30,961 nt of DNA from a virus, in IMG/VR virus record IMGVR_UViG_3300025133_006670, positions 1 through 30,961 of that record; one strand, given 5' to 3'. The translations under genes and the position numbers were made by a program. Position 1 is the first letter of the stretch. Every line of letters starts with the position of its first letter. Below, piece by piece: positions 4,914-30,961 of the stretch. The notes beneath the pieces are model-generated. The model saw only the letters and a program-made list of their open reading frames with translations. It made no database searches and had not been told where the DNA came from.

Positions 4914-5683
4914 TTTAAACGAGCTTCGATAAGAAGATGCCAACCCAAATTCTTTTCTAAGGTGGAAAACATCTTAGGGGGCATACATTTAAACCACTCT
5001 TGTAAATTATATTGTTGTTTTTTGTAACTGCTAATCTCATAAGGAAAAATATGATCTTGGTCAATGTTGGTAACAGTGTATCCCTCTAATAATTCATGCA
5101 CCTCTGAATTGGTATAAGTACGGGCAATGGGACAGCCCCTCTGGGCTTCTGGTCGATCCAATCCTGCCTCAATCATAAAATCTTTCCATGAAGTAGAAGC
5201 ATACAGCATTAAACGGAATACAGTACCCTTTCCCATGTACTTTTTAATCTCCGACAAAAGTTTATGAGGATCAGGCGTATGATGAATCACTCCGAAAGAG
5301 TAAATTAAATCATACTCTTCGATAGGAACCACAGAACTAATATCTTCCCCGTATACTTGATAGAAAGATCCCTCTAAATTAAAAATCTCAAACCTTTTAC
5401 GGGCTAACTCCAAAGCTTTTTCTGAAAGATCTACCCCTGTATAGGTAGCTCCCGCTTCTGCGAAAGACTGTGCCGCTGTTCCGAGTCCACATCCAATCTC
5501 TAAAACTTTTTTTCCCCTCCACTCTTCAAAATTTGCAAACGGTAGAATATGAGACTCTACTTTATACTTCTTCTCAGAAACTTCTTTAAAATATCTTTTT
5601 GTTCCTATCTGTGAATTAGAGTGATTAAGATTACATGGGATATTATCCCAAAAAGAAATAACATCTTTTAAATTACTACTCAT
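4910..5683 (-). CDS. Class I SAM-dependent methyltransferase
   Basis: 257 aa from ATG 5683, which has GGAG seven bases upstream and overlaps the upstream stop as ATGA; an in-frame TTG at 5695 is not needed. Motif I VLEIGCGLG is at about residues 60-68, followed by the ribose-binding acid in TGVDLSEKAL and motif III/post-I YDLIYSFGVIHHTPDP, the usual methyltransferase-11/25 pattern. The C-terminal half (TYTNSEVHELLEGY onward) is a substrate-side extension seen in methyltransferases of polysaccharide clusters. It lies between two fucosyltransferase-like genes, so a sugar or glycan-tip acceptor is likely. The exact substrate is not readable. Confidence 0.85.
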   Translation of the reverse strand: MSSNLKDVISFWDNIPCNLNHSNSQIGTKRYFKEVSEKKYKVESHILPFANFEEWRGKKVLEIGCGLGTAAQSFAEAGATYTGVDLSEKALELARKRFEIFNLEGSFYQVYGEDISSVVPIEEYDLIYSFGVIHHTPDPHKLLSEIKKYMGKGTVFRLMLYASTSWKDFMIEAGLDRPEAQRGCPIARTYTNSEVHELLEGYTVTNIDQDHIFPYEISSYKKQQYNLQEWFKCMPPKMFSTLEKNLGWHLLIEARLK

Positions 5684-6474
5684 ATAATTCTCCAATTTTG
5701 TGTATACAAGTACAACGGAAGTTTCTGATATTTTGTATTACAGTACACCGTGCCACCACCTTCATTGAGGTAAGATGCCCACCAGCTAAAGGTGCTGTCC
5801 CACGCAGTAATATTATGCGTACACTTTTTTATTAATTCAAAATCTAACAACTCTGAGTTACCTTCCATAAAATGGAAGTTATCTCCCCTTAAATTTTCTT
5901 TACACCATAAAAAATCACTATCACGATCTTCATTTCCTTTTCTGCTTCCCCCAGTAAAAACTAAGAAATCAGTATCTTTACCTACATCTTCTACCGCATG
6001 ATTTATATATTCTAAAACCAATCTATGGTAGTCAGGGTGGGCGTAATCAAGATAGTCCCCTTGACGTATATGAATGCTAGTTGGGTTTGTATAGTTAGAT
6101 AAAATACTTGTAGCTTGATCCTGAACGGATTGAGAAGCCGAAAACTCTTTTATGAAGACATTTCTATATTTATCAAAATAACTCGGGTGTTGAAAAAATC
6201 CCATAAAATTAGTCCCGTCCTCTACAGAAAAAACCCCGTCATCAAATTGATGAGGAGTTCTCTCGTAATATATGTGCGAGGGAGGAGACATTAGGGGTTC
6301 GTAGGAAAGCTGTAACTGTGGGAGAAGGCAGTTTTGTCCATGCCAAGTCCTATCGGAGAGATCTGGTAATTGTAATGGTAGTCCTCGCTCTAATGAGACG
6401 GATTTAACTACTGCATATTGGAAAAGCTGATTTCCTAATCTACCGTATTGTCCTAAATTAGTAAAGGTAATCAT
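5680..6474 (-). CDS. GT11-family alpha-1,2-fucosyltransferase-like enzyme
   Basis: 264 aa from ATG 6474, which overlaps the upstream stop as ATGA; the GTG at 6483 is less likely. GT11 enzymes transfer L-fucose from GDP-fucose in alpha-1,2 linkage. Visible are the N-terminal GRLGNQLFQYA signature (residues 11-21), the donor motif HIRQGDY (about 135-141), and STFSWWASYLN near the C-terminus, all characteristic. Length fits bacterial GT11 enzymes. No signal peptide or membrane segment is seen, so it should act in the cytoplasm on a lipid-linked glycan or a protein. No GDP-fucose synthesis gene is in the window. The nearby GDP-mannose 3,5-epimerase suggests the donor may be GDP-L-galactose (inference). 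Confidence 0.88.
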   Translation of the reverse strand: MITFTNLGQYGRLGNQLFQYAVVKSVSLERGLPLQLPDLSDRTWHGQNCLLPQLQLSYEPLMSPPSHIYYERTPHQFDDGVFSVEDGTNFMGFFQHPSYFDKYRNVFIKEFSASQSVQDQATSILSNYTNPTSIHIRQGDYLDYAHPDYHRLVLEYINHAVEDVGKDTDFLVFTGGSRKGNEDRDSDFLWCKENLRGDNFHFMEGNSELLDFELIKKCTHNITAWDSTFSWWASYLNEGGGTVYCNTKYQKLPLYLYTQNWRII

Positions 6475-7484
6475 AGGAAGCACTCCATAAGTTTATCAAA
6501 GGAGTATTCTCGCTTCCACTCAGGATACTTGGATTCAAACTTAGACATGTCTGTAATATACCAGATATGATCCCCTACTCTATTCTTATCACTAATAGTG
6601 TAGTTTAGTTTTTTTCCGTAAGCATTCTCAAAATAGGTAATCGCTTCCAGCATTGATATATTATTTTCAAATGAACCTCCAATATTAAAGACTTCTCCAT
6701 AACAATCACCATCATTATAAATTGTCTCTATACAAGATGCTATATCGTTAGAATGAATGTTATCCCTCACTTGCTTCCCCTTGTATCCGAATACAGTATA
6801 CGGCTTTCCCTCTTTAACGCACTTGGAGAGGTAAGACAGAAACCCATGAAGCTCTGCTCCTTTATGCTGCCGCCCTGTCAAGCATCCACAGCGTAACACA
6901 GCACTCTTCATCCCCAAGTTCCTTCCATATTCCTGAACCATCAAATCAGCAGACAACTTACTAACTCCAAATATACTATGTGTACATTGATCCACAGAGA
7001 AATCCTCTGCTACCCCAAAAGATTTATCCTTAGCGGAGTATCGTGTCTCCTCTTCAACCAAGTTTATACGATTGGGGCCATCTCCATACACCTTGTTAGT
7101 GGATAGGTAAACGAACATAGCCTTTGGAGACATGGCACGAGTCGCTTCTAATAAATTAAGAGTTCCTCTTGCATTAATATCAAAATCTAATACAGGATCA
7201 TTGTATGACCAATCGTGAGAAGGTTGGGCAGCGCAGTGGATAACTAAGTCTACTCCATCTAATAAGCTTTGCATACTATCGCTACGAATGTCCTCCCACT
7301 TGTGGGAGTAATTTGAGTACGCTTTAAGCCCGTCTAACTCGCTCCTTACGGAAGCAGAATCGCCAAAAAACTCCTTACGCATATCATTGTCAACACCAAC
7401 TACCTCAAACCCTTGTCTAAGAAATCTAAGGCAGCAAGATTGACCAATAAGTCCTAAAGACCCTGTTACAACTACTTTATTCAT
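6471..7484 (-). CDS. CDP-paratose/tyvelose 2-epimerase-like SDR
   Basis: 337 aa NAD-dependent extended SDR. The nucleotide loop is VTGSLGLIGQ (6-15), followed by DNDMRKEFFGD, AAQPSHDW, STNKVYGD (128-135), EETRY, GGCLTG-like CGCLTGRQHKGAELHGFL, GKQVRDNIHS and FNIGG. The STNKVYGD, ETRY, GKQVRD and FNIGG blocks recall RfbE-type CDP-tyvelose epimerase. The expected catalytic YxxxK reads FGVSK (172-176), with TTT for residue 172, so the hydroxyl-bearing Tyr is a Phe. From memory some relatives share this Phe, so it is probably a subfamily trait rather than damage. Both ends overlap neighbours as ATGA. It likely makes a modified nucleotide sugar. The CDP-sugar supply genes are not in the window, so the substrate is uncertain. 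Confidence 0.8.
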   Translation of the reverse strand: MNKVVVTGSLGLIGQSCCLRFLRQGFEVVGVDNDMRKEFFGDSASVRSELDGLKAYSNYSHKWEDIRSDSMQSLLDGVDLVIHCAAQPSHDWSYNDPVLDFDINARGTLNLLEATRAMSPKAMFVYLSTNKVYGDGPNRINLVEEETRYSAKDKSFGVAEDFSVDQCTHSIFGVSKLSADLMVQEYGRNLGMKSAVLRCGCLTGRQHKGAELHGFLSYLSKCVKEGKPYTVFGYKGKQVRDNIHSNDIASCIETIYNDGDCYGEVFNIGGSFENNISMLEAITYFENAYGKKLNYTISDKNRVGDHIWYITDMSKFESKYPEWKREYSFDKLMECFL

Positions 7485-8101
7485 ACCTTATGATAGATCT
7501 CGTCAACATCTAACTCTGTGAGTTTCACATAATTTTTGCTAGTCAAGAACTCATTAATTCCTGGGTCCCTATAGTTATTTTCTACAGAAATACTACGGAT
7601 GTCCACAGCGTCAAAATCTATAGTTTTTAATATGTCTAACTCTTTCCCCTCTACATCAAGGCTCATATAATCTATAGACTCCACATTATGCTTTTCCATA
7701 AGAAACTTTAGAGTAACACAATTCATATCTACAATATTTACATCTCCCCCCTGTTGACGTAGCTCATCAACAATTCTAAATAAATGACGAATGTGATAAC
7801 CCTCTAAGAGACCACTCAAACCCTGAGCGGGACCTAAAATCTGCAAGAACTTTCTAATCTCATTCTTATCAGAGATCGCTGTGTTTTCGCATATACAGTT
7901 TCGTTCTTTAACTAAGTTATCATAAACTTCCTTCACAGGTTCAATTACAATACCTTTCCACCCCAAACGCTCAAAAAATATTGTGTTATTTTGTCTAACT
8001 GGTTCTGATGCTCCTATATCAACAAAAAAGCCTTTCTCTTGTTTGTTTAAAACTTCTTCATATATAAATTTATCTTGTCCAAATTGGCTATAGTAACTCA
8101 T
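7481..8101 (-). CDS. FkbM-family SAM methyltransferase (island copy 3)
   Basis: 206 aa with the textbook FkbM layout: SQFGQDKFIYEE at the N-terminus, GFFVDIGASEP (SAM loop, about 24-34), NTIFFERLGWKGIVIEP, NTAISD, and the IDYMSLDVEGKELDIL core near residue 145. This is the most canonical of the FkbM genes here. Start ATG 8101 lies 14 bases inside the end of the GT10-like gene; the stop overlaps the next start as ATGA. The likely role is O-methylation of a sugar hydroxyl in the island's glycan. The position of methylation is not predictable. Confidence 0.92.
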   Translation of the reverse strand: MSYYSQFGQDKFIYEEVLNKQEKGFFVDIGASEPVRQNNTIFFERLGWKGIVIEPVKEVYDNLVKERNCICENTAISDKNEIRKFLQILGPAQGLSGLLEGYHIRHLFRIVDELRQQGGDVNIVDMNCVTLKFLMEKHNVESIDYMSLDVEGKELDILKTIDFDAVDIRSISVENNYRDPGINEFLTSKNYVKLTELDVDEIYHKV

Positions 8102-8942
8102 TTATTCCATTCTCCCACACATGCTTCCAAGGATATAAAAACTGTTCGGCCTTCTCAAAGTTGTTCCTTACAGAATTAAATTTTTGTTCATACAAATCTT
8201 TATTTAGAGTAGGTAATATACTTTCTAATTCGGATACATTAGAAAAAGTAATTATTCCCCCTGAATCAAAATTATCAAATATAGAGGGGTCTCCACAATA
8301 AACAGGTATAGTTCCAGTCCTAAAACAATCTAAAATCTTTTCAGTAAAATACCCATCAATAGAAGCATTCTCTATTTCAACAGAAAATCTATAGTCTTTA
8401 ATAAAATTAAGTTTATACTCGTCCCCAGTATTCTGGTACTTACTATGATCTGTGCCCCCCTTACGAACATAATCAAATAAGTTCTCATACCTTTGAATAA
8501 CCTCATGCCTCATCCTGTGTCCTGGGGCAAAAGACTTTGAAGAGGCAATTATGGTGGTGTTCTTACTCTTATCGTATATCTTATGGTCTTCTACCTTAAT
8601 AAAATAAGATCCCCACGGGCAATAGCGAGAATTATCAGGGAACTGTCTAATAAAATCTTTTGTATGCGTAAAGATTAAAGCTGCCTCGTCCTTAAAGTAA
8701 TGTGCTTGCTGGTAGAGATGTGGGTGGATAGAAGGAGGTTCAATAATCCAAATAATCTTCTTCTGAGCATTTACCTCGGGAAAATAGGGAAGAGCTTGAT
8801 CTGTGATAACCACAAGATCATGATATTTTTTAGTAGCATCATTTAAACTAATATTTTCAAAAACTACATCACTACCAATCTTGTTGGCTTCTTTAACATA
8901 TTGGCCTGTGGGGACAGTAAAATCTAAAAAAGGAATGTTCAT
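8088..8942 (-). CDS. GT10-like (alpha-1,3-fucosyltransferase fold) glycosyltransferase
   Basis: 284 aa. The C-terminal half carries the family's donor-binding block: YRFSVEIENASIDGYFTEKI (about 184-203), then CFRTGTIPVYCGDPSIFD, matching the FxxxxENSxxxxYxTEK and GxVPVxxG pattern of GT10 enzymes such as Helicobacter alpha-1,3-fucosyltransferases. The N-terminal half (IIWIIEPPSIHP, then FTHTKDF and PWGSYF) is the more variable acceptor domain. No membrane segment is evident. ATG 8942 overlaps the upstream stop as ATGA. GT10 enzymes normally use GDP-L-fucose. In this island GDP-L-galactose is the only GDP-deoxy/L-sugar for which a synthesis enzyme is visible. Confidence 0.85.
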   Translation of the reverse strand: MNIPFLDFTVPTGQYVKEANKIGSDVVFENISLNDATKKYHDLVVITDQALPYFPEVNAQKKIIWIIEPPSIHPHLYQQAHYFKDEAALIFTHTKDFIRQFPDNSRYCPWGSYFIKVEDHKIYDKSKNTTIIASSKSFAPGHRMRHEVIQRYENLFDYVRKGGTDHSKYQNTGDEYKLNFIKDYRFSVEIENASIDGYFTEKILDCFRTGTIPVYCGDPSIFDNFDSGGIITFSNVSELESILPTLNKDLYEQKFNSVRNNFEKAEQFLYPWKHVWENGINELL

Positions 8943-10420
8943 AGTTGGGTTCTCCTTAAAATACTGCTCGGGAGATCTCCTTGACCCATACTATGCTCAA
9001 AAGCTACTGACCCCCCAGCAGGATTAAAAGGTATGTTTAGTGTACTCCGTACCTCATCTTCTAACTTCTCCCTTTCTATTACTAAATCATTAGCAGAAAT
9101 ATGATCAGTCCAAACATAGGATTTATATCCCCCATCGGGATCTCCTTTATAATAGTCGGGCTCTTCTAAGTAATTTAGATCTTTCTGATATAATCTAACA
9201 CCAGTTCTGGGTTGAGTGTATACATAATAATCTTTCTCTTTAACAGCCTCATCAAAGTAAGGAGAACCTGGGTAAGTAGTTATAATGGTGCAATCAAAAT
9301 CTTCTGGTTTGGTTTCAAGTAACCAATTCTTCGTATTCTCTATAGTTTCCTTACTTTCTCCCGCATGGCCGATGGACATGAGAGCTTTCACTTTTAATCC
9401 AGCATTCTTAGCGTACTGTACACACTTAGTGTTGGCAGCTACATCAGCATTCTTCTCTATGTTGGTCAGGATACTCTCGTCACCAGACTCAAATCCAGTT
9501 AAAAGCCATCGGAATCCTGCTGCATACATTAGGTCCGCTTGTCTCTGGGTGAATAATTCAGCCTTTACAAATCCTCTAAACATGAACTGTTCATTAACTT
9601 CTTTTTGTAAGGCAATCAACCTCTCTAAAAGAGATTCCCACTCTTTATTTACATTCAACTCATCATCATAAAACATAAAACCAGTAAATCCATAAGTATC
9701 ATATAGATGACGAACTTCATCCACCACAGAATCAGATGATCGAGTACGAATTTTTCTTAAGAAAGGAGAATTTCTACCACCACAAAAGGTACACTTAAAA
9801 GGACATCCTAATTGACAAATTAAACTCGTAGCTTTAGCTCCCTCGATACTGTAATGATAAGAGTCCATATCCACTAAATGCCGTGCAGGAAGAGGAAGAT
9901 CCTCTAACTCATCATTAGTAAGAAATAACCCGCCCTTGGGAACATCAGCATCCACTATACCCCTATCAGTGTCAAGAGCTTCAAAAATAGCTTTCTCCCC
10001 ATCCCCAGCAACCAGAACATCGAAAGTATCTAACAACGCTCCAATATCCCGTGTGGCTCTTCCAGAAAACTTTTCTTTCTTTGCAGCAGAGTTCATAAGG
10101 GAGGGATGGGGACCTCCTAAGATAATTTTAGACTCTGGGGAAAGTTCTCGTATATTATTAGCTATCTTAAAAGCAAAAGGTACTTGGGGAGTGGTTGCTG
10201 TTAAACCAAAAGTTTTAACAAATGGATTTTTATTTATATAAGTATCCAATACTTCCTCACAATTCTCTACCCCAGCTAAATCTAGAAAATCAACAAAATA
10301 TCCCCTCTCCTCTAAAGCAGAAGCTACTTTTAAAATACCTATATGAAGAAAAACTCGTTCATCCAGTAAAAAGGGAGAAGGTGGAGTAATCAAACAAATA
10401 GTTTTATTTACTGATAACAT
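8939..10420 (-). CDS. B12-binding-domain radical SAM protein
   Basis: 493 aa. The N-terminal about 150 residues form a cobalamin-binding-like Rossmann domain (ICLITPPSP, GLTATTPQ, KIILGGPHPS, LVAGDGE) without the DxHxxG histidine motif, as in many members of this class. The radical SAM core follows with C206, C210 and C213 in GCPFKCTFCGG, which bind the 4Fe-4S cluster, then MFYDDELNV and LLTGFESGDESIL. The C-terminal about 120 residues are substrate-specific. Such enzymes methylate unactivated carbons or rearrange sugars and lipids. Position between GT2 and GT10 genes suggests a glycan or nucleotide-sugar substrate. ATG 10420 lies inside the upstream gene's end (17-base overlap). The reaction cannot be assigned. 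Confidence 0.88.
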   Translation of the reverse strand: MLSVNKTICLITPPSPFLLDERVFLHIGILKVASALEERGYFVDFLDLAGVENCEEVLDTYINKNPFVKTFGLTATTPQVPFAFKIANNIRELSPESKIILGGPHPSLMNSAAKKEKFSGRATRDIGALLDTFDVLVAGDGEKAIFEALDTDRGIVDADVPKGGLFLTNDELEDLPLPARHLVDMDSYHYSIEGAKATSLICQLGCPFKCTFCGGRNSPFLRKIRTRSSDSVVDEVRHLYDTYGFTGFMFYDDELNVNKEWESLLERLIALQKEVNEQFMFRGFVKAELFTQRQADLMYAAGFRWLLTGFESGDESILTNIEKNADVAANTKCVQYAKNAGLKVKALMSIGHAGESKETIENTKNWLLETKPEDFDCTIITTYPGSPYFDEAVKEKDYYVYTQPRTGVRLYQKDLNYLEEPDYYKGDPDGGYKSYVWTDHISANDLVIEREKLEDEVRSTLNIPFNPAGGSVAFEHSMGQGDLPSSILRRTQL

Positions 10421-11117
10421 CTAAAGCCGTCCTCACTTGTTCACTTAAATTTTGTTTGTGCTCGTTATTCATGTGAGATAAATTATAAACTAAAAGAATA
10501 TCTTCAATAAACTCTACTTTAGAATACCCAATTTTTTCTAATATAGGAACAAAAATAACCACATCTGCTGCTGCTGTATAAAAAGTTCCTTCCTTATCCC
10601 TAAAATTGTGATCTTCTAGCAAGTCCCACAAATGTCTTTTAAAGGTTCTTAGGTGAGAGAAGGGCCATCCATCTATAACCGCTTGGCGGGGGCTACCCAT
10701 GTACTCTCGGGCTACGCATTTATCTCCTGTAGTAGAAATATAACTACCATAGGTTAACCAGCACCCTGTATCTTCGTAAACCTTAGCTACTTTGGATAGT
10801 GCATGCTCATTTATAAGCCAATCATCCCCATCCAACTGTACAATTATATCATTCACGCCTGTCTCTGAATTTTCTACTCCCTTTTTATGATTTAAAGGGA
10901 CCCCTATTCTTTTATCATTTTTAATTATCTTAAATCGTTCGTCACCGCAAATAGCCTCCTCGGCCTTTTCAACTGTGGAATCCATAGAGCAATCATCTAC
11001 TATAACCTGAGTAAAGTTAGTATGGGTTTGATCTTTAACTGATTGAATGCACTTGCCTATCCACTTCTCAGCGTTATAGACAGGAGTTATAACTCTAAAA
11101 GTGGGTTCCATGCTCAT
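10404..11117 (-). CDS. GT2-family glycosyltransferase
   Basis: 237 aa from ATG 11117, which overlaps the upstream stop as ATGA; the TTG at 11138 is unsupported. GT-A fold: FRVITPVYNAEKWIGKCIQS at the N-terminus, VIVDDCSMDST (about 39-49) and the metal-binding QLDGDDW with DxD at about 96-99. A WPFSHLRTFKRHLW acceptor-side segment and a KIGYSKVEFIEDILLVYN block close the catalytic domain. No membrane helices, so a soluble inverting transferase. The sugar donor cannot be told from sequence. It is the third transferase gene after the lysis terminator in the direction of transcription. Confidence 0.9.
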   Translation of the reverse strand: MSMEPTFRVITPVYNAEKWIGKCIQSVKDQTHTNFTQVIVDDCSMDSTVEKAEEAICGDERFKIIKNDKRIGVPLNHKKGVENSETGVNDIIVQLDGDDWLINEHALSKVAKVYEDTGCWLTYGSYISTTGDKCVAREYMGSPRQAVIDGWPFSHLRTFKRHLWDLLEDHNFRDKEGTFYTAAADVVIFVPILEKIGYSKVEFIEDILLVYNLSHMNNEHKQNLSEQVRTALDVISK

Positions 11118-11920
11118 AACTCTAACGCCTCTTCCCAAAGCTCGTACACACTTTCTGAGGTCAAGTAATCTACATCAGCATTAGCGTCAGTAACCCCAAA
11201 ATATGGAATACCTACTAAGCTGCATTCTGCTTTAATATAGTTAAATGTTTCTCTTTTTGAAGCATGAAATACTGCATCTATTTTATCATACATCTTTTGC
11301 TTATCATCCTCATGCCCCATCATCTCCACACAAGGGTGTTTATCTAATAAAGGCTGCATAGCCATATTGAAGTAAGGCTGGTCTGTGACGGTTCCGAAGA
11401 CCTTTACCTTGGTTCCTATAGGATTTTGCTTTAACGCCTGTCTGACGGCAACGTCAGTCCTCTTATGGGCATCTATACTCCCTATCACGCCCACAGCATT
11501 ACGAGGTGAATCAAAAACACGCCTTGATAGCTTGCTAAGGACATTAGGAATAACTACTGATGGATGATCAATACCGTGCCATTCTTTTTGGGAGTTACTC
11601 ACAAAGTGTACGAAATCTATGCCTTGCAGGTTCATCTCTTTGAGAGGGAAAAGGTTTGTCTCATGGCAGCTTAAGATTATCTTCTTTGCTATAAAAGGTG
11701 CGCCATCTTCAAAGTTCATAAAGTGAATTATTACGGTGTCAGTCTCTTCAGGTTCAAAGTCTTCAGGACCTCCTGATTTACATTGATCTAAGTGCCAGCT
11801 GTGGGGACCATAAAAAGTGCAGTCATGCCCCTTCTCATTTAGCAAATTAGTTAGATTAATAAACGCTACCGTGCTCCCGCCAGGATTGCTCCATCCACTA
11901 AATATCTTTATCTTAGACAT
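11114..11920 (-). CDS. GT-B fold glycosyltransferase (GT4-like)
   Basis: 268 aa from ATG 11920, preceded by GGAG about nine bases upstream; a longer in-frame start at 11989 would bury 77 bases in the upstream gene. The N-terminus KIKIFSGWSNPGGSTVAFIN has the GGS-type loop of GT4 enzymes. The second domain starts at VGVIGSIDAHKRTDVAVRQA, where the K-R pair usually contacts the donor phosphate, and ends with DAVFHASKRETFNYIKAE, matching the E-x7-E region of GT4 proteins. It is short for the family, with a reduced N-terminal domain. Donor and acceptor unknown. Confidence 0.75.
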   Translation of the reverse strand: MSKIKIFSGWSNPGGSTVAFINLTNLLNEKGHDCTFYGPHSWHLDQCKSGGPEDFEPEETDTVIIHFMNFEDGAPFIAKKIILSCHETNLFPLKEMNLQGIDFVHFVSNSQKEWHGIDHPSVVIPNVLSKLSRRVFDSPRNAVGVIGSIDAHKRTDVAVRQALKQNPIGTKVKVFGTVTDQPYFNMAMQPLLDKHPCVEMMGHEDDKQKMYDKIDAVFHASKRETFNYIKAECSLVGIPYFGVTDANADVDYLTSESVYELWEEALEL

Positions 11921-13139
11921 TTGCTTGCCACTCCTTGTTGTAGGTTTCCTTCTCATTTCTATCAGAGAGGAGCCCGAAGCTTTGCTCATACAACTCCAGA
12001 CGGTGTTTAACTACAGTATTTATATTAAAGTATTCCTCTGTGACCTTGTGAAGGTTCTCACCCATCTCACGCACATGCTTTGGATTCTTAATACATTTAG
12101 TTAACACCTTGACCCAATCACTTTTAGTAGCGTTAGGAGGGAGTAAATATCCAGTCTCCCCATTTATGATAGTCTCATCATAACACCCCACATTAGAAGC
12201 TATAAGAGGAACTTTATATCTTCCGCACTCCGCTACTTTAATCTCAGACTTACTATCATTAAAAGCATTCATCTGGAGAGGAGCTATAGCAATATCCATG
12301 TTCGCAAACATGGTTCCATATTCGTTAGGGTTCTTAGCATAATGAATATTCCAGTTCTTAGCCCCCTTAAACCCCTTAAGTAGAATCCTCTTGTAATTCA
12401 ACCATACCTCGTGCTGCCACCCAACCGCACCTTCAGGGTCAGGTAGTGGGCATCCATAGAAATCCCAAAAAACATTCTCTCTGCCCACTCTACCGTTTAC
12501 AAAGTGAGGAACACCTGCGAATTCTTTAACATCCTCCTCGTGATGAATACCTCCTGCCCATCCTACCCTAAGAAGCTTCTTTCTTAAGGAGCGTGTCTTT
12601 GGAGCATTCCAGCAAGGGAGGTTATAATCAATAGAATTTTTAACGACTGCGAGAACCCCTCCACACATTTTTCTAATTCTATCAGCAAACTTTCTTTGTG
12701 TCACTGTTACAAGATCGGAGTTAGCATAGATAAACTTAGTAACCTCACCAAGCTTCCTATCCTTATAAACCCCATGTAACCTATGTCCCTTATACAAGTC
12801 TGTTAAAAGGTCATCCGTGTCGTAATGAACAAACTTACCAAACTCCTTGCCTTTGCCCACTACTCTAGCGGTGTACTGTCCCCCAAAGTTAGATATGTTT
12901 TGAGTCCATACAATATCAGCCCACTCAAACTCAGACCAGTCATGATCCTCGTCGGATGGCATCTTACCTGTTTCAGTATCTAACCCAAGAGGATTCAGGT
13001 TAAACTTAATCTCAACCTGATCGGGATAAAGCTCCGCTAACTTTTGAGCGGGTAGTATCAGCCTATAATAGGCACATCCCCCCTCATTTGCAGGTACTAC
13101 TAAAATCTTAAGCTTACTTTTTTTCTGGTCTTCCATCAT
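11913..13139 (-). CDS. GT-B fold glycosyltransferase (GT1/GT4-like), first gene of the island
   Basis: 408 aa from ATG 13139; the next codon is also ATG. An upstream in-frame GTG at 13172 lies inside the terminator hairpin and would put polylysine-like vector-free coding across it, so I reject it. N-terminus LKILVVPANEGGCAYYRLILP, then a DADxV-like WADIVWTQN strand, HYDTDDLL, and in the second domain LLRVGWAGGIHHEEDV, IAIAPLQMNAFNDSKSEIKVAE, VPLIASNVGCYDE and NGETGYLLPP. The SEIKVAE-to-GETGYL region is the usual GT4 donor-binding end. Proteins of this type are common in phage and polysaccharide loci. Being first in the island it may act on the primary acceptor, but that is inference. Confidence 0.82.
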   Translation of the reverse strand: MMEDQKKSKLKILVVPANEGGCAYYRLILPAQKLAELYPDQVEIKFNLNPLGLDTETGKMPSDEDHDWSEFEWADIVWTQNISNFGGQYTARVVGKGKEFGKFVHYDTDDLLTDLYKGHRLHGVYKDRKLGEVTKFIYANSDLVTVTQRKFADRIRKMCGGVLAVVKNSIDYNLPCWNAPKTRSLRKKLLRVGWAGGIHHEEDVKEFAGVPHFVNGRVGRENVFWDFYGCPLPDPEGAVGWQHEVWLNYKRILLKGFKGAKNWNIHYAKNPNEYGTMFANMDIAIAPLQMNAFNDSKSEIKVAECGRYKVPLIASNVGCYDETIINGETGYLLPPNATKSDWVKVLTKCIKNPKHVREMGENLHKVTEEYFNINTVVKHRLELYEQSFGLLSDRNEKETYNKEWQANV

Positions 13140-13149
13140 GTCTTTCTTT

Positions 13150-13190
13150 AAAAAAAGGGGAGTGAGAGACACTGAGTATCCCTCACCCCC
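13150..13190 (-). terminator. Strong intrinsic terminator after the lysis cassette
   Basis: Read on the minus strand, a GC-rich hairpin is followed by seven Ts (13156-13150). The stem pairs GGGG with CCCC, GTGAG with CTCAC (one T bulged between the two), and GATAC with GTGTC around a TCA loop. It lies 20-60 bases after the stop of the embedded lipoprotein gene and before ATG 13139. The opposite strand has no T-run, so it acts on minus-strand transcripts only. No clear promoter is seen between it and the glycan island, so partial read-through or antitermination may set island expression. Confidence 0.88.
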
Positions 13191-22720: not shown

Positions 22721-23361
22721 AGCGCACCCCAGCTCTCAGGAAACAAAGAGAATAATATATTACTAATAGCCTCCGCATACTCTCTCGTCTCTAGTTGTGT
22801 ATGAGAATCAATTCTAAGCTTGTATAAATGAAACCATGCCAAGAGAGTCCCAGTCCAAACAATCGTCGTGTACATAGACTGTGGCAGAACCATACGGGCC
22901 ATCTCAGGAGCAACATCCATTTTCAGCAAATTATTATACTGATCTATGCAAGAATTACAAAAAGATTTATATTCAATATCTTTTTCGGGTATTAGACCAT
23001 CGCCACTACCTTGTTTTATGGAATCTTTTGGCTTAGATCTCCATGTCTCAGGGGTATAGAATGTAGGTTTTTGAGTAATATACCTCCTACTTACTTCAGA
23101 CATAGACATTCCAACCTGATGCTTCCCTAATTGTCTTAATACAAATATAGGAACTTTAAGCCTGAGGGTTACTGAAGGGTGTCTAAAGGGGAGTAAGTGT
23201 TTATTCTTTGCCAAATAATTTATAAGACCCACATCCCTCTTTGAATTAAATACATCGTGATGATTACTAAAGGATGCCCTTGCTGCATTAACCACAAGAA
23301 GATCATCTCCCCCGTGAGACAGGTAATGGGTCCAGCCCTTATCCAAACAAGAAATTTTCAT
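22702..23361 (-). CDS. thyX: Flavin-dependent thymidylate synthase (ThyX)
   Basis: 219 aa. It makes dTMP from dUMP with FAD and methylene-tetrahydrofolate. N-terminal LLVVNAARASF, then LPFRHPSVTLRLKVPIFV (FAD/folate side), the ThyX motif region KHQVGMSMSEVSRRY (80-94), and the C-terminal block EMARMVLPQSMYTTIVWTGTL with HTQLETREYA. The motif differs from the textbook RHR-x-x-S-x-N-E-x-S-x-R-Y by K and Q for the first and third residues, one extra residue, and S for N. ATG 23361 overlaps the polymerase C-terminal gene as ATGA. Confidence 0.9.
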   Translation of the reverse strand: MKISCLDKGWTHYLSHGGDDLLVVNAARASFSNHHDVFNSKRDVGLINYLAKNKHLLPFRHPSVTLRLKVPIFVLRQLGKHQVGMSMSEVSRRYITQKPTFYTPETWRSKPKDSIKQGSGDGLIPEKDIEYKSFCNSCIDQYNNLLKMDVAPEMARMVLPQSMYTTIVWTGTLLAWFHLYKLRIDSHTQLETREYAEAISNILFSLFPESWGALCEHLL

Positions 23362-24479
23362 TTACTATCCATATATTTCATTACATCCCCTATGTTCTGG
23401 GGTACTCCCTCTTTATTAAAGTCTACCTCGACCCCATCCCCAAAAGAAAAGCCAACCTCTGCATCAATTTTTAGAGGTACATCAAAATTAATGTTAAAAG
23501 TATCCTTGATAAAAGGGTAGTTAACCATCTCATCATAAATAATTTCTAAACAATCGGACAAACTATCTTTGTGACAAATAACCTCTAAACTATCGTGAAC
23601 CGTAGCTACGAGATGAGCATTTATATTCTCTTCGTTAAACCGTCTATAGGTGCCTAGAAGCCCACATAAAAGAATATCAGAGGCAGTAGATTGGATAGTA
23701 AAATTAAGACCTTGACGTAGGGATCTGTTCTGTACTGAAAAATCTTTTGATCTAATGTCAGGTAGGTTCCTTCTCCTATGAAATATGGTATAGGCATACT
23801 CATTTGTTTTGATAAAATTATTAACGAAATCCATGTAAGAAAAGATCCCAGGATATACGTTCTTAAAGTTATTAATAATTTTCTTAGCTCTAGATAAGGA
23901 TATGCCCGTTACCTCTGCCAAATTAAAAGCACCACCCCCGTAGACAATAAGGAAGGATACAGTTTTTGCAATTTGTCTCTCATCTTTAGTAATATTCTCT
24001 TTGTTAAATAGGAGTTTGGCAGTATATGTGTGCAGATCTACGCCCTCATTAAAAGCTTTCTGCATGTTACCTTCTTTGGCAATGTGGGCTAGAACACGAA
24101 GCTCCATAGCAGAGTAATCCACAGTAACAAAGCAATGGTCCTTGGGACATGTGAACAGGCTTCTAATGTTATTGTCTTTATCTCTGGGTAACGTATGAAA
24201 AGACACCCCCATAGGCTTCTGAGCAGTGTAGGCAGCGCATGACAAGCGACCTGTGGATGTTCCATCAAACCTGTAGTCCACATACACTCTTGGCGTTTCG
24301 TTGTACTCAATAGCCTTCTTCGTACCTACCACATAAGTCTTCTCTAACTTTTGCGATTTACGGAGGGATAGTAACCCCTTCAAAAACCCTTGAAGATTCC
24401 TAAGTTCCCCCGTACTCTTCTCCTTCAACACTGATAAGCTTATCTTCTTACCTTCATCCCTGTAGTTCCATTTACCCAC
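23358..24479 (-). CDS. polA: DNA polymerase family A, polymerase domain (C-terminal piece)
   Basis: 373 aa, the palm and fingers of a Pol I-type replicase. DGTSTGRLS (72-80), motif A VDYSAMELRVL (120-130, D121), O-helix R168-x3-K172-x3-F176-x3-Y180-G181, QSTASDI (263-269) and motif C VHDSLEV (294-300) are in order. Motif C has HDS for the usual HDE. Position 176, equal to E. coli F762, is Phe. The annotated start is GTG 24479, eight bases inside the middle piece and about ten bases after AGAGGAG; +1 frameshifting at GGG-TAA would join it to the middle piece. The polymerase domain is complete only with the thumb in that piece. Confidence 0.9.
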   Translation of the reverse strand: MGKWNYRDEGKKISLSVLKEKSTGELRNLQGFLKGLLSLRKSQKLEKTYVVGTKKAIEYNETPRVYVDYRFDGTSTGRLSCAAYTAQKPMGVSFHTLPRDKDNNIRSLFTCPKDHCFVTVDYSAMELRVLAHIAKEGNMQKAFNEGVDLHTYTAKLLFNKENITKDERQIAKTVSFLIVYGGGAFNLAEVTGISLSRAKKIINNFKNVYPGIFSYMDFVNNFIKTNEYAYTIFHRRRNLPDIRSKDFSVQNRSLRQGLNFTIQSTASDILLCGLLGTYRRFNEENINAHLVATVHDSLEVICHKDSLSDCLEIIYDEMVNYPFIKDTFNINFDVPLKIDAEVGFSFGDGVEVDFNKEGVPQNIGDVMKYMDSK

Positions 24480-24480
24480 G
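24472..24480 (-). other. Possible +1 recoding or GTG reinitiation site in polA
   Basis: Middle piece ends CGT GGG TAA; the next piece reads GTG GGT AAA in the +1 frame. A glycyl-tRNA on GGG could re-pair on the overlapping GGT when the stop stalls. AGAGGAG lies about ten bases upstream of GTG and could serve reinitiation or stimulate recoding. Confidence 0.45.
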
Positions 24481-24951
24481 GCTTTCTAGCTCCTCTTCTA
24501 CTTGGGACAATAATAATTTAAGAGTGGGTGCGGACACAGAAGGCTTACCCTTCGGAGTTCTATCAGGGGGGTACACCTCAAAAGACCCCTCCCTTGTGTA
24601 TAGTATATCAATAAGATCTTTATTAGATGCCATATTATCGGACGTACTAACTTGGTCAAAGGTATAAAGGTTATCCTCCTCTTCTATATTTGAAGAGGAT
24701 AGTTGCCTTGCCACAGATCCTAACCTGCCCTCGCTTACATGCATCCCATTAAACTCCATCTCAGAAAACGGAGTCAGTGCTGGCATTATTAATTCGGACG
24801 TAATCTTACCCATCCCTAGGTCCTTAATCTTATCTTCAATAAGATTAAAAAGTTTCAAAGTAAAGTAAGTATCCATAGCGTTACCTTCGCAACAATCAGA
24901 GAGTGACATCTCCGACCATTTGAAAGTTTTCGGGTTACTTATAGTAAGCAT
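24472..24951 (-). CDS. polA: DNA polymerase family A, middle piece (Exo III and thumb region)
   Basis: 159 aa. It holds the end of the 3'-5' exonuclease domain: the segment GNAMDTYFTLKLF with D27 matches Exo III, though the tyrosine usually four residues before the aspartate is a glycine. Then comes the domain boundary LIMPALTPFSEMEFNGMHV, familiar from Pol I (E/R-x-x-G-x-x-I/V), and thumb-like sequence ending TPKGKPSVSAPTLKLLLSQV. ATG 24951 overlaps the first piece's stop as TAATG. Its frame is shifted by -1 from the first piece and the third piece returns to the first frame. With the neighbours it makes one normal-length polymerase. Confidence 0.85.
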   Translation of the reverse strand: MLTISNPKTFKWSEMSLSDCCEGNAMDTYFTLKLFNLIEDKIKDLGMGKITSELIMPALTPFSEMEFNGMHVSEGRLGSVARQLSSSNIEEEDNLYTFDQVSTSDNMASNKDLIDILYTREGSFEVYPPDRTPKGKPSVSAPTLKLLLSQVEEELESRG

Positions 24952-24953
24952 TA
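24951..24953 (-). other. TAATG stop-start junction inside the split exonuclease domain
   Basis: TAA (24953-24951) and ATG (24951-24949) share one base. The downstream frame is closed by TGA only five codons before the ATG, so any frameshift would have to occur within about 15 bases, where no X-XXY-YYZ slippery heptamer fits. Termination-reinitiation is the simplest reading. Confidence 0.6.
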
Positions 24954-25973
24954 AAGGTTTTCCAATTCATTCGAGAAATAAAGCTTAACCAAGTCCATCA
25001 AGGACTTTGGTGCCGTCTCATTGATAAAGTGGTGCATAATCTTAGTGTCCCACACACACTCTACATTTATCCCATGATTCAGCAAAAACTTAAGATCAAA
25101 CTTGGCGTTGTGGAATACTTTTTTATTATAGGGGTTCTCTAAAATTATTTTAACCCACTTCCGCATTGTTTTAGAATCTTCCTCGCCCTCCTTGAAGGGA
25201 CTGTCCTTGTGATCCCAAGGGATTACCCAAGTACCATCCTCAGAGGATATGGATATGCTCATTATCTTATCTCGAAGAAAATTAAGACCTGTAGTTTCTA
25301 AGTCCACGGCCAAAGTTTCCTTACACTGTTTAAGCTTCTCTCCCAAGGAGACTACTTCTTCAGGAGTTGTAAGTACCTCATAAGAGAAATCACCTGAACC
25401 TGTGTTGCCTAGAATATACTTATCATACGCATTTTTAATATCCGTCTCAAACAAATATGAGTGTCTGGGTTCTTTTATCACAGCGTATGGGTGAAAGATG
25501 GGGACAACGGTACACTCATGCCCAGAATTGGTGGAGTATGGGAAAGAGCTACCTCGCTTACTTGTTATTCCACTTTTCTTAATGAGCATTTTCATTGACA
25601 AATTCCCACAAGTAAAAACTAACTTGGGTTTAACCTTATCAATAGTAGCGTCTAAATGCTCACGACACAACTTCATGTTTACTGGTGTCATATCGCCCTC
25701 TTTGACGGAGGGACATTTAACAGATGCAGCAAACTGAGCGTCTTCTGGGTAGTGCTTTAGAAGTAGATTCATTTCCTTTTTAGAAAAGGGTATAAGCTTC
25801 CCAAACTTATACTTCAGGGAATCAGATAGAAATAGGACTGGTCCTTCTCTAAGTTTTTCGTAATCTAAGTAAGAATGTTCAGGCTTGCTTTCCTTTAGGA
25901 TGGAACATCCTTCACAAAGAGAATTGGAGCAGGAGGGATTTAAGCCGCTATACAGGTTTTCTAGTTCTTGCAT
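24951..25973 (-). CDS. polA: DNA polymerase family A, N-terminal piece: UDG-like domain plus Exo I/II
   Basis: 340 aa. Residues 1-185 resemble a family 4/5 uracil-DNA glycosylase: likely 4Fe-4S ligands C20, C23, C87 and C103 (the last two in VKCPSVKEG and KLCREHL), TCGNLSMKML, and HP in IFHPYAV (H161). The catalytic GE-x-P-G motif is absent (GPVLFLSDSLKY instead), so the domain may be inactive and act as a clamp or DNA reader. Residues 218-340 are a 3'-5' exonuclease: Exo I VDLETTGL (D224, E226) and Exo II HNAKFDLKFL (D293). Exo III lies in the next gene. ATG 25973 has no Shine-Dalgarno and TATAATA six bases before it. Confidence 0.88.
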   Translation of the reverse strand: MQELENLYSGLNPSCSNSLCEGCSILKESKPEHSYLDYEKLREGPVLFLSDSLKYKFGKLIPFSKKEMNLLLKHYPEDAQFAASVKCPSVKEGDMTPVNMKLCREHLDATIDKVKPKLVFTCGNLSMKMLIKKSGITSKRGSSFPYSTNSGHECTVVPIFHPYAVIKEPRHSYLFETDIKNAYDKYILGNTGSGDFSYEVLTTPEEVVSLGEKLKQCKETLAVDLETTGLNFLRDKIMSISISSEDGTWVIPWDHKDSPFKEGEEDSKTMRKWVKIILENPYNKKVFHNAKFDLKFLLNHGINVECVWDTKIMHHFINETAPKSLMDLVKLYFSNELENL

Positions 25974-25975
25974 TA

Positions 25976-25985
25976 GTCTATTATA
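25976..25985. promoter_or_regulatory. Divergent promoter element between polA and the sigma gene
   Basis: The 16-base gap between the two divergent ATGs holds GTCTATTATA. Read leftward it gives TATAATAGAC, a perfect -10 hexamer six bases before the polA ATG. Read rightward TATTAT lies five bases before the sigma ATG. Neither start has a Shine-Dalgarno, so leaderless transcripts both ways are possible. No -35 is obvious. Confidence 0.55.
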
Positions 25986-25989
25986 AGTT

Positions 25990-26343
25990 ATGGTTAAGAA
26001 GGTTTATTACATAGATAACGACAGGTTTGAAGAAATCATTCCCCTCTATCTTCAAAATACTAAAGAGTATGAAGATGAGTTAATGGAACTTTTCGATCTA
26101 CTCATCACTAATATTATAGAGAGCTTTAAGTTTAATATAAATAAAGAAGATGCAAAGCAAGAATGTTTTTTGCTGATCTTGAAGACCTTGAAAAATTTCC
26201 AACCCTCCAAAGGCAGCGCGTTTAATTACTTCACAACCGTTATCGTAAATAACCTAAAGCTTCTGTACACTAAAAACAAAAAGTACGAAAAAAAGATAAG
26301 TGACTATCAAGAGCTAAAAGGTTCTCACAAACCAAGCTCTTGA
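25990..26343 (+). CDS. gp55-like late sigma factor (region 2)
   Basis: 117 aa on the opposite strand from most genes. After a helical N-terminus, the stretch DAKQECFLLILKTLKNFQPS with the following AFNYFTTVIVNNLKLLYTKN matches sigma region 2 as reduced in T4 gp55: the F-x-P-x-K-x-x-x-AF-Y-T pattern with a basic helix for -10 recognition. No regions 3 or 4 are present, as in gp55, which works with a sliding clamp and coactivator. It starts at ATG 25990 without Shine-Dalgarno and converges with the thioredoxin-like gene (19-base overlap). It would direct the host RNA polymerase to phage promoters. Confidence 0.72.
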   Translation: MVKKVYYIDNDRFEEIIPLYLQNTKEYEDELMELFDLLITNIIESFKFNINKEDAKQECFLLILKTLKNFQPSKGSAFNYFTTVIVNNLKLLYTKNKKYEKKISDYQELKGSHKPSS

Positions 26344-27001: not shown

Positions 27002-27003
27002 TT

Positions 27004-27013
27004 GTCTATTATA
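27004..27013. promoter_or_regulatory. Divergent promoter element, second copy
   Basis: GTCTATTATA, identical to the 10-mer at 25976-25985. Leftward it gives TATAATAGAC six bases before ATG 27001. Rightward TATTAT is followed by a 20-base leader with CAGGAG before ATG 27033. The 31-base gap holds nothing else. Confidence 0.55.
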
Positions 27014-27032
27014 GCTCAGGAGACGAAAAAAA

Positions 27033-27551
27033 ATGAAGGATAATTACGATTTAACTAATCTTCGCAAGAAGCCAAAAAGAAAGAACAGCCGTACCAAAGG
27101 CAGCACCTTCGAGAGGCAGATAGCGAAGACATTCAATGATAGATTCAAGACCAAGGAATTTTCAAGAAGTCCTGGATCTGGGGCTTTTGCCACAACCCAC
27201 TCACTACCTGAATACTTAAAAATATATGGTGATCTAATAACACCTAAGAACTTTAAATACTGCATTGAATGTAAAAAAGGATACAATAATATAAACCTTT
27301 ATAGCTTATACAATTATAGTTCAGACATCTGGAAATTTATAGAACAATGTGAGAAAGATTCTAAGAAATGTGACAAAATACCGATGGTGATTTTTAAGCA
27401 AGACAGGCAACCAACGCTAGCTATCGTACCCCAAGAGGTGATATTCACTGAGGCAGAAAAGTACATAGAAATACACAAAAATAAAACATATAAAGTTTAT
27501 TTATTTGAAGAAATTCTAAAAGATTGGGACTCTATGTGGTTTTATCCATGA
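27033..27551 (+). CDS. PD-(D/E)XK nuclease-like protein
   Basis: 172 aa. A basic N-terminus (KKPKRKNSRTKG) precedes the nuclease core: E27 in GSTFERQIAKTF, RSPGSGAF, D67 in YGDLITP and E79-x-K81 in YCIECKKGY, the order and spacing of Holliday-junction-resolvase and restriction-like folds. After it come helices and QPTLAIVP. It could be a resolvase or repair nuclease. AGGAG precedes ATG 27033. It is on the plus strand and converges on the large coiled-coil gene with a 20-base overlap. Confidence 0.75.
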   Translation: MKDNYDLTNLRKKPKRKNSRTKGSTFERQIAKTFNDRFKTKEFSRSPGSGAFATTHSLPEYLKIYGDLITPKNFKYCIECKKGYNNINLYSLYNYSSDIWKFIEQCEKDSKKCDKIPMVIFKQDRQPTLAIVPQEVIFTEAEKYIEIHKNKTYKVYLFEEILKDWDSMWFYP

Positions 27552-30500
27552 GTTTCTCTAAGAGGATTTGTTGTCCTCGTAAGAAAGCAATCAGCAAGCT
27601 TTCTTCCTTAGGTTCTCCCCACTTCTTTCCCAGCGCTTTAGCAGCTGCCCTAACTTGATAAAGGTCTTTATCTTTCTCTTCCTGAGACAGTTCAGCGTAA
27701 GGTACAAACAATTCAGGGTTCTTCTTTTTCTTCCTCCTGTTTCTCTTCATCCAAGCCTCATGAACAGCTTCAGCAGCCTCCTCCTCGGTTCCTGCGACTT
27801 CGACGCTGTCCACAGCCGCTTTTGCAGCATTTGTGTTTTCCTTTTGAGCATCCTTGGGCAGATCCTTAAAATTAGTATTTAAAATATCTACCTGTGGACC
27901 CTCATCTCCCCAGCCGTCCTCGGGTTCATTTTCCTTAGCCCATTTCTTATCTGTAGTTGGTTTGAAACGGTCCTCATCATTGGGATTTTCTTCTCTAAAC
28001 TTCTCTGCCCATTTTTCATGAAAAGATGGACCCAGAGTTTTAATAGCCTCCTCCCTCGCTTTCTTAGCTTTCCTATCCGCTGCCGCTTTTTCCTTCAACT
28101 GTTCTGGAGTCAATTCCCTCACTTTCTTCAGTTCAGCTGCCGCTGCGTCCCTCTCTGCCTCCGCTTTCTTCACTCGCTCCTCCTTAGCGGCCTCCGCCCT
28201 TTCCACCCGCTTTTTCTCAGTGGCCTTCGCCCTATCCGCTACTGCCCTATACTTAACTGCCTTAGCCTCAGCTGCCTTAACTGCCTCCTCAGCCTTAGTC
28301 GCTGCTGCCCTAGCCATCTCCGCTGCATTCTTCGCTACCTCTTTATTCTTTTTAGTTGCTTGCTTTGCCTCAGTTTCCGCATTCGTAGCCCTAGTCCTAG
28401 CTGCCGTCCTTGCCTTCTTTGCCTTCTTTACCTCCTCTTCAGCTCTCGTAGCCTTAGCTGCCTCCTTATCTGCCTTAGCTGCCTCTGTCTCAACCCTAGC
28501 TTCCTCTTTCTTCACTTTCTCCTCCGCTTTCTTATTCTTCGAAAAGGCAGCTCTTAGGGGTTCCCTATCCTCTTTCTCCTGCGCCACAAGCTCCTTTCTC
28601 CTCGCCGCTTCCTCCTTCGCTCTCTTCTCCAGATCAGCGTACTTCTTTGTAAATTCGGCAGGAGTAAGATTCTTCTTATCCTCTTTCTTTTGCGCTTCCG
28701 CCCTTTTCTTAGCTTCTCCCTGTCTCCCCTCTTCGGCGGTATCTCTATCAGAAATTAGTTTGTATAGAGTTTCTGAAGAACCAGTCTGGACTTTAGTGTT
28801 ACCACGATCCCTCTTTATCAATGCTCTTTGGTCATCCCCCTGATTCACATAAATAGCGCTTCCTCCTTGGTGTACAAATGTTGCTGTTTGAACATTGCGT
28901 ATAACTTCTGCATTTCTAGCTCCCGCATAGTGTCTGTTGTGCGTCAAGTCTCTTTTTTCATTAATAACATCCTGATGTGCCAGTGCCCCTAGTGCATACA
29001 TTACTTGGGCATAGCTTTTAGCATCACCAGTAAGAGTACCGTCTTGGCTGTTCCTCTCCTTGCTTGCCATAAGTACTTGTTTCACACCGCTGTCACGAAT
29101 GGCGGTCCTGATCTTTTCTAAGTGCTCTGCATCGGATTCTATTGTCGCGGGAGGAATTGGGTCTTCTCCTTTTAACGCTCTAATAGCCCCTGCTCTTCGT
29201 TCCTGGTGTTCGTTAAGACTCGACCCCGCCCCCTCACGCTTCAACCGCTCTTTCTTCGCGCCTGAAATTGCATCCTCCCACAGGTCAATTGTCGCTAACC
29301 CTGCTTCAATCATCTGCCCGTCAGGACCCTTTGCCAGTGTTCCAGGTGTTAAAGTCTCTATCAAGGGCTTCGTAGATTTAATTATCTTTTTGTAAATTTT
29401 ACACGCTCCCGAAAAAGCTTCTTTCCCAAGCGATTCCCCACTATCAGCACATTCACCAAATAGCTTTTTAATATTATCTATATGTTCAGTCTCCGTCTCA
29501 CTCAGAGTACCAACATACTCTTTATCCTCATCGCGACATATATATTCCATTACCGCAGGTAATTTTGTGGACCCAATGTCCCCCATTGTGCTGGATTGAA
29601 CTCTCTCTCCTTGCGCGGGAGAATGAACCTTAGGCTCCCTAGAAATAGCAAAAGCAGTTGCATTTTCACCACAATCAGCACCATATCCTTGCAAAGTTTC
29701 ATTATCTATCTCTCTGATAAGGTTGTCATCAATATACTTATCTAAGTATGTATCGGGACCCGTGAACCCATCGTCATCCTCTGATGGATACTTCCCGCAC
29801 TCTTTCCTTAGAAAATCTGTTTGCTCATCATTCATTAACCCTTTAGCATACTCTCTAAGTTTTATCCTTTTTTCCTCTCCTACGCCTTCCTCTTTAACAT
29901 CTCCCTCCACACAATAAATATCTAACAAGTCCTGTTTAGCCCCCAACACATTAGATGCCCCTAGTTGGCCCTGTCCCGCCCCTATTGTAAAATCAGGGGG
30001 CATACCCGTAGGCGCAATGCCTTCGGCAAAGTGTCTATTACCTATAATAACAGCGAGAATGGCTTTTAATCTATCAGCATTTACTGGATTACCGTTATCA
30101 TCTGTTTTTATCTTCCCGTCATCACCAATACCCGCAGCCTTTTTAAGAAATGCTTCAGCATCTTCGGGCTTTGCTCCTTCGGCCACCAAACGCTCCATTA
30201 AAAAGTTATAAATTGCAACGGCCTGTATTTCCCCTTCTTGTGTAAGGATAGCAGAATCCATAGCTAAATAGCCAACAGCAAGAGACCTAAGAAGGGCATC
30301 AGCAGACCATAGCCCCGATTCCCAGTCTTCCAAAACCCCGTCACCAAATTCATCAAGACAACCCCAATCCTCCTTCTCCGCCGCACCCTCTATACAATCA
30401 TCAAGTCTACGAGAATAAGTATCTAAATTTTCTACTGCTGTTCCTCGACGATCCTCTCCTGCCATGGTATAAACTGGACCCTCTTCATCAATAGATATTT

Positions 30501-30961
30501 CAGGTATCGCGATGGACTCACTCCCAATACCTCTTTCCGCCCTATCCGAGTCTATAGTTGTTCTAATTGCCAGTAAATGATCTCTCATCTTAGTTTGTAT
30601 TAGAGATTCTGAGGCGGTACATGCACCTATTGCGGTGCCTCCGAATCTAATACATCCGTACTGATCAACGGAAATATCATATTTTTGTATTAGGTTGTTG
30701 ATATCATGTGTATAGTCTCCATTAGCAGCCTTTTCTGGGTGATTTTGGATATCCATCCCTAATTTTAGGAACTCTGTAACTCCTTCCAGAGTCACAACTA
30801 TGGTTCGCTCATCTATATCAGTAACTTCTGCCGTTAGCTCTGCCAGATCTCTCATTTTTTCAAGCTCTGTGTCTATATCCTGTTCTGATATTTTTCGATG
30901 CGCGCTATCAGCAGTTGCAAGTGCCCGTTGATTATCATCTTCCAAAGCCTTAGATAGTACT
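27532..30961 (-). CDS. Large coiled-coil protein with RyR-like C-terminus, 5' end missing
   Basis: At least 1137 aa from TTG 30945, but the frame stays open to the window edge, so the true start is probably outside. The N-terminal about 700 residues are acidic, globular-looking and unrecognised. Residues about 735-965 are Ala/Lys/Glu-rich coiled coil (for example AEAQKKEDKKNLTPAEFTKK and many AEAAK repeats). The C-terminal about 170 residues contain FHEKWAEKF and KPTTDKKW, then NTNFKDLP, and finally HEAWMKRN and VPYAELSQEEKDKD, which resemble RyR-domain repeats seen in some phage and bacterial proteins. Possibly a structural or injected protein, but this is a guess. Composition is uneven and differs from neighbours. 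Confidence 0.75.
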   Translation of the reverse strand, partial: VLSKALEDDNQRALATADSAHRKISEQDIDTELEKMRDLAELTAEVTDIDERTIVVTLEGVTEFLKLGMDIQNHPEKAANGDYTHDINNLIQKYDISVDQYGCIRFGGTAIGACTASESLIQTKMRDHLLAIRTTIDSDRAERGIGSESIAIPEISIDEEGPVYTMAGEDRRGTAVENLDTYSRRLDDCIEGAAEKEDWGCLDEFGDGVLEDWESGLWSADALLRSLAVGYLAMDSAILTQEGEIQAVAIYNFLMERLVAEGAKPEDAEAFLKKAAGIGDDGKIKTDDNGNPVNADRLKAILAVIIGNRHFAEGIAPTGMPPDFTIGAGQGQLGASNVLGAKQDLLDIYCVEGDVKEEGVGEEKRIKLREYAKGLMNDEQTDFLRKECGKYPSEDDDGFTGPDTYLDKYIDDNLIREIDNETLQGYGADCGENATAFAISREPKVHSPAQGERVQSSTMGDIGSTKLPAVMEYICRDEDKEYVGTLSETETEHIDNIKKLFGECADSGESLGKEAFSGACKIYKKIIKSTKPLIETLTPGTLAKGPDGQMIEAGLATIDLWEDAISGAKKERLKREGAGSSLNEHQERRAGAIRALKGEDPIPPATIESDAEHLEKIRTAIRDSGVKQVLMASKERNSQDGTLTGDAKSYAQVMYALGALAHQDVINEKRDLTHNRHYAGARNAEVIRNVQTATFVHQGGSAIYVNQGDDQRALIKRDRGNTKVQTGSSETLYKLISDRDTAEEGRQGEAKKRAEAQKKEDKKNLTPAEFTKKYADLEKRAKEEAARRKELVAQEKEDREPLRAAFSKNKKAEEKVKKEEARVETEAAKADKEAAKATRAEEEVKKAKKARTAARTRATNAETEAKQATKKNKEVAKNAAEMARAAATKAEEAVKAAEAKAVKYRAVADRAKATEKKRVERAEAAKEERVKKAEAERDAAAAELKKVRELTPEQLKEKAAADRKAKKAREEAIKTLGPSFHEKWAEKFREENPNDEDRFKPTTDKKWAKENEPEDGWGDEGPQVDILNTNFKDLPKDAQKENTNAAKAAVDSVEVAGTEEEAAEAVHEAWMKRNRRKKKKNPELFVPYAELSQEEKDKDLYQVRAAAKALGKKWGEPKEESLLIAFLRGQQILLEKLMDKTT

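Follow-up and report, generated by a model that had tools for sequence, protein, structure and literature searches.

A family A DNA polymerase gene in three pieces, cut within the exonuclease domain and the thumb, in a lineage of related viruses

Phage enzymes encoded in pieces

Phage enzymes encoded by genes in pieces commonly, although not universally, have a homing endonuclease in the break or close to it. The family B polymerase of Aeromonas phages 25 and 44RR is specified by two genes, whose products gp43A and gp43B co-purify, with polymerase activity, in the case of phage 25 (Petrov et al. 2010, in PMC2988022). According to PMC2988022, the break is occupied by an intercistronic sequence in one relative and by a homing endonuclease in another. 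This is a phage replicative polymerase in separate genes, as we propose for the locus described here, but it belongs to family B instead of A, is in two pieces instead of three and has the homing endonuclease at the phage 25 break. Likewise, the same paper reports that an important enzyme of phage Aeh1, the ribonucleotide reductase (nrdA/mobE; Friedrich et al. 2007, in PMC2988022), is broken inside a functional region and that the split NrdA is fully active as separate polypeptides; in that other enzyme, unlike here, a homing endonuclease caused and occupies the break.

As here, a family A polymerase of marine phages, the PolA of the OM43 phages MEP401 and MEP402, is divided among separate ORFs, which have a small gene between them and for which the authors suspected an intron (PMC10580990). 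In contrast to the present case, it is in two pieces, has its break immediately ahead of motif A (about Klenow residue 700), keeps its exonuclease uncut and has no UDG-like domain. Intact PolA enzymes with a fused UDG-like domain are already known (PMC7412058), and the nearest unsplit architecture that we found is that of Lysinibacillus phage LysYB1, Pseudomonas phage PaBG and MW202455, in which the domain order is shared and the total length is similar. These enzymes are nevertheless single uninterrupted proteins, about 30% identical to ours, with an Exo III Tyr in those aligned. Rhodothermus phage RM378 was rejected as a precedent, because its annotated polymerase pieces have no sequence match to the three pieces described below. 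The splitting of phage polymerases, including family A polymerases in two pieces, is therefore already known; what appears new is the three-piece, in-domain, lineage-wide form, since no report of such a family A polymerase with gene cargo was found in the literature searched, which omits most subscription journals.

Three reading frames for one UDG-like/exonuclease/polymerase

The window, by which we mean the whole stretch of DNA analysed, is a 30,961-bp IMG/VR virus fragment, for which blastn gave no match among known phages. A sequence-only reading of it had described a family A polymerase with UDG-like and exonuclease domains (window 25973-23358, minus strand) as three ORFs of 340, 159 and 373 aa, with the first and third in a common frame, the second offset and tight TAATG and GTG overlaps between them; a genuine split, recoding and two compensating indels had been offered as explanations. 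The three ORFs proved to be exactly as described, the frames are those seen in the window and both overlaps can be read directly (Table 1). The sequence runs ...GAAAACCTTTAATGCTTACT at junction 1 and ...AGCCGTGGGTAA at junction 2, where p3 begins, at a GTG, 8 bp before the end of p2, with a GAGGAG purine run upstream.

Table 1. Features of the split polymerase locus (window coordinates; residue numbers are those of each piece)
Feature	Position	Strand	Description
p1	24951..25973	-	340 aa; UDG-like + Exo I/II
junction 1	24949..24953	-	TAATG stop/start overlap, TAA and ATG sharing one base
p2	24472..24951	-	159 aa; exonuclease C-terminal part (Exo III D27, Gly23 at Tyr position), connector, first half of thumb
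junction 2	24472..24479	-	GTGGGTAA, p3 start and p2 stop overlapping by 8 bp
p3	23358..24479	-	373 aa, GTG start; thumb second half, palm, fingers
p3 motif A			D121/E126
p3 motif B			R168/K172/F176/Y180
p3 motif C			H295/D296
divergent gap p1 / sigma-like gene	25974..25989	.	16 bp, holds TATAATAG element

Profile searches place a UDG (Pfam E 9e-6) and a 3'-5' exonuclease (E 2e-19) in p1, whose fold matches are to family 4 UDG and to the exonuclease of the Klenow/Rrp6 type, and DNA_pol_A (Pfam E 1.8e-76) in p3, where the family A motifs A, B and C are present with the two catalytic Asp. The middle piece matches the phage DNA polymerase profile phrog_17, and its family profile aligns with Klenow chain positions 160-294 (E 1.8e-9). 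When the pieces are aligned with the intact LysYB1, MW202455, JacoRen57 and Klenow enzymes, none is complete, and one coding region is spread over separate genes. Junction 1 maps to about Klenow residue 474, inside the exonuclease domain, and junction 2 to the thumb tip, at about residue 618, a mapping that agrees with the profile matches. The thumb tip is also where T7 polymerase has its thioredoxin-binding insertion, and changes are thus tolerated there. Because both cuts fall inside domains, p1 cannot complete the exonuclease, p3 cannot complete the thumb, and p2 supplies half of each.

The DEDD residues of the 3'-5' exonuclease are complete only when p1 (D224, E226, D293) and p2 (D27) are taken together. 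Exo I D224/E226, Exo II D293 and the motif residues of p3, among them D121, R168, K172, Y180 and D296, are invariant in all relatives covering them. The placing of Exo III in the middle piece holds for the catalytic Asp, D27 being kept in 103/103 relatives among the matches listed, and fails for the Tyr: p2 residue 23 (window about 24883-24885, minus) is Gly where Klenow has Tyr497, again in 103/103 of the matches listed, whereas the aligned intact homologues retain the Tyr. As the Exo III Tyr is missing, proofreading may be weak or altered in the split lineage.

At the other end of p1, C20, C23, C87 and C103 are invariant in the 96/96 relatives covered among the matches listed, and C87 and C103 align with Cys of 4zbx. 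These four Cys (residues 20-103, window about 25916-25665, minus) are kept as in [4Fe-4S] family 4 UDGs and may hold a putative cluster, which would be unusual in a replicase subunit. The UDG-like domain may be without catalytic motif A (GEAPGxxE in family 4), as the stretch likely to correspond to it reads FLSDSxK in alignment A1.

The two breaks across the lineage

Relatives, mostly metagenomic viruses, were gathered from IMG/VR scans listing up to 80 loci each, and counts are of distinct loci among the matches listed. At least 103 distinct loci have p1, p2 and p3, all in order, and the comparison with homologues that had been suggested as a check thus finds related virus sequences cut at the same two places. 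Fusion at junction 1 or 2 was seen in 0/103 distinct relatives among the matches listed, beyond which a fused close relative could exist. The most distant of them (e.g. L013) are about 42-50% identical to the window pieces. One contig (L017) was rejected as a fused relative, being error-ridden with many frameshifts, and another (L071) has a frameshift within p2 that is possibly an error.

An artefact, in which sequencing or assembly had given a single normal gene two indels that compensate each other, would fit the frame shared by p1 and p3 in the window, and the error-ridden contig just mentioned shows that such sequences exist in this family. We nevertheless regard it as almost inconceivable, for the same breaks occur in at least 103 distinct relatives, as well as in a separate assembly, a near-identical contig (L003) that differs by 29 mismatches and a single gap in 9,091 bp and whose junction bases are identical to those of the window at both junctions. 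Whole genes stand at the break in 47 relatives among the matches listed. Moreover, p1, p2 and p3 are each under purifying selection in their own frame, with pairwise dN/dS of about 0.01-0.1 in nearly all pairs; the exceptions are a pair that has hardly any changes and a p3 pair at 0.2.

Junction 1 is a one-base overlap (TAATG, TGATG or TAGTG) in 54/103 of the matches listed, a seven-base overlap (ATGCTAA) in 2/103 and an insert in 47/103. In these 47 relatives the inserts span 151-2403 bp, are bounded exactly by the p1 stop and the p2 start, and are filled with unrelated, ordinary genes, often antisense. The 486-bp inserts hold an antisense lipoprotein-like ORF; further cargo consists of antisense basic proteins with an N-terminus in common and, on the same strand, of a glycosyltransferase, a 2OG-Fe(II) oxygenase and a 91-aa membrane-like ORF. 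On a quick tree with many poorly supported forks, parsimony requires at least 14 switches between overlap and insert, which makes junction 1 a recurrent insertion or deletion site; the tree was left unrooted, as adding intact polymerases as root put branches at the length limit. The break point therefore doubles as a gene-insertion site. The antisense basic proteins (L040, L056, L059, L063, L071, L072) begin with ESIWxTYxxM, also MNSYDRIYxLL, occur up to three in tandem and may be proteins of the head interior, or injected ones, that carry a targeting sequence.

At junction 2, the commonest form among the matches listed is that of the window (8 bp), besides which there are the 4-bp overlap ATGA and overlaps of 1, 7, about 20-26 and about 46 bp. 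Two relatives that also have a gene at junction 1 carry small genes here, a 75-aa ORF (L013) and a 200-aa DUF6445 ORF (L286). In L286 the DUF6445 gene lies at 3396-3998, and the 2OG-Fe(II) oxygenase is at junction 1 of the same locus. Most lineages have a p2-to-p3 frame offset of +1 and others one of +2, a variation in keeping with independent starts rather than with a single recoding signal.

Recoding, that is programmed frameshifts at both junctions giving one fused polypeptide, is what tight stop/start overlaps with frame offsets would bring to mind. It is very improbable, since junction 1 offers no constant slippery site (CTNTAATG, TTCTAATG, CTCTGATG, ATGCTAA), the direction required at junction 2 varies by lineage, and a frameshift is unable to cross inserts of up to 2403 bp. 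The inserts, which cannot be bridged, and the varying offset refute recoding and indels alike among the explanations first offered; the genuine split is supported by two breaks shared by at least 103 relatives and L003.

Splicing deserves the same scrutiny, as phage polA often has group I introns and a polB split intein with a homing endonuclease is known (PMC6892783). That a group I intron or a split intein rejoins the pieces is, in our view, extremely improbable: no Rfam intron was detected at gathering score in the window or in five insert-bearing loci (L062, L050, L013, L040, L064), the insert genes are ordinary and often antisense, and overlap-type genomes have nothing between the pieces to splice. 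Furthermore, p1 ends in ...YFxxELExL and its stop, p2 starts with MLTI, no intein sequence is found at either end, and the piece lengths agree with those of intact homologues. The breaks possibly arose by ancient invasion, the invader being lost later; no remnant of it was seen at the breaks, and no homing endonuclease or nuclease family was found among the scanned junction insert proteins.

A proposed three-part replicase and its genomic setting

We consider it highly probable, from comparative sequence evidence, that the locus encodes a genuine three-subunit family A DNA polymerase, whose separately translated pieces assemble into one replicase. According to this proposal, a gene for a UDG-like/exonuclease/polymerase of about 870 aa would have been broken twice, long ago, into p1, p2 and p3. 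Each piece would have its own start, and in the window translation would be coupled by the stop/start overlaps, TAATG and GTGGGTAA; in loci whose genes are parted by inserts, ribosome-binding sites are not clear-cut. The products would then assemble non-covalently, with the exonuclease site built from p1 and p2 and the thumb from p2 and p3. We infer this assembly, the activity, the translational coupling and the replicative use; assembly has a precedent in gp43A/43B, which co-purify with activity, and in the fully active split NrdA. Structure models point the same way, although they are only suggestive. Modelled alone, p2 reaches a pLDDT of 57 and a pTM of 0.27 from a shallow alignment (18 rows), which may itself explain the low confidence rather than dependence on partners, and the confidence of the p1 model, also from a shallow alignment, falls at the broken end. 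A fold search with the low-confidence p2 model gave nothing significant.

The pieces might instead have parted in function, p1 being a free repair/exonuclease factor and p3 an exo-less polymerase, no longer one enzyme. Indeed, p1 can lie up to 2.4 kb from p2-p3 with antisense genes between, and the Exo III Tyr is lost. This we find improbable, because the cuts through domains leave p1 without Exo III and p3 without half of the thumb, and because p2, although without a recognisable function of its own, is under purifying selection and keeps the exonuclease Asp in 103/103 of the matches listed.

To return to the three-subunit enzyme, the inserted and antisense genes that part p1 from p2 would uncouple the supply of p1 in roughly half the relatives among the matches listed. 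One could imagine, though we think it unlikely, that the split is a maintained regulatory design, in which p2 + p3 would form a polymerase without proofreading, the supply of p1 would set proofreading and so the mutation rate of the infection, and junction 1 would be a standing gene-cargo site. As to replicative use, a profile search of five long records (71-131 kb) found PolA in 5/5, PolB in 0/5 and Pol III alpha in 0/5; one PolA, with neither of the others, supports the split enzyme as the replicative polymerase without proving it.

If this is correct, a natural three-part replicative DNA polymerase, with exonuclease active site and thumb each made from two chains, has been kept across a broad lineage. 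It would show where a family A polymerase tolerates fission, would be a potential ready-made split polymerase for enzymology, and makes testable how a replicase cut within domains stays under strong selection. Annotation pipelines will label such genes as fragments or errors.

The five long records were searched for psbA, which would point to a cyanobacterial host, and it was not found in them. A 130,604-bp relative (L179, QCKN01000003.1; L064) has also been deposited within the Prochlorococcus single-cell assembly AG-409-P03, as one of its contigs, possibly through a host link or a co-sorted virus.

The TATAATAG element in the gap upstream of p1 is also present there in most relatives among the matches listed, and in every locus with an antisense insert a related element, TAATATATAG, lies ahead of p2. 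In the window TATWATAG occurs at 12 sites against 4.5 expected, often as the palindrome CTATWATAG, and stands close to divergent genes, only a few bases from their start codons, for example at 25974-25989 and 27002-27032. It is possibly a compact phage promoter or operator. The gene divergent from p1, 16 bp away (25990-26343), encodes a 117-aa sigma-70 region 2-like protein, a possible phage sigma factor. Further along, a 1142-aa minus-strand ORF without Pfam or PHROG match (27532-30960) runs off the contig end. Among the other window genes are thyX, an SbcCD-like nuclease pair, RNR, DnaB helicase and SSB, and a minus-strand block of nucleotide-sugar epimerases, UDP-glucose dehydrogenase and glycosyltransferases (178-13172) suggests a glycan island in the phage.
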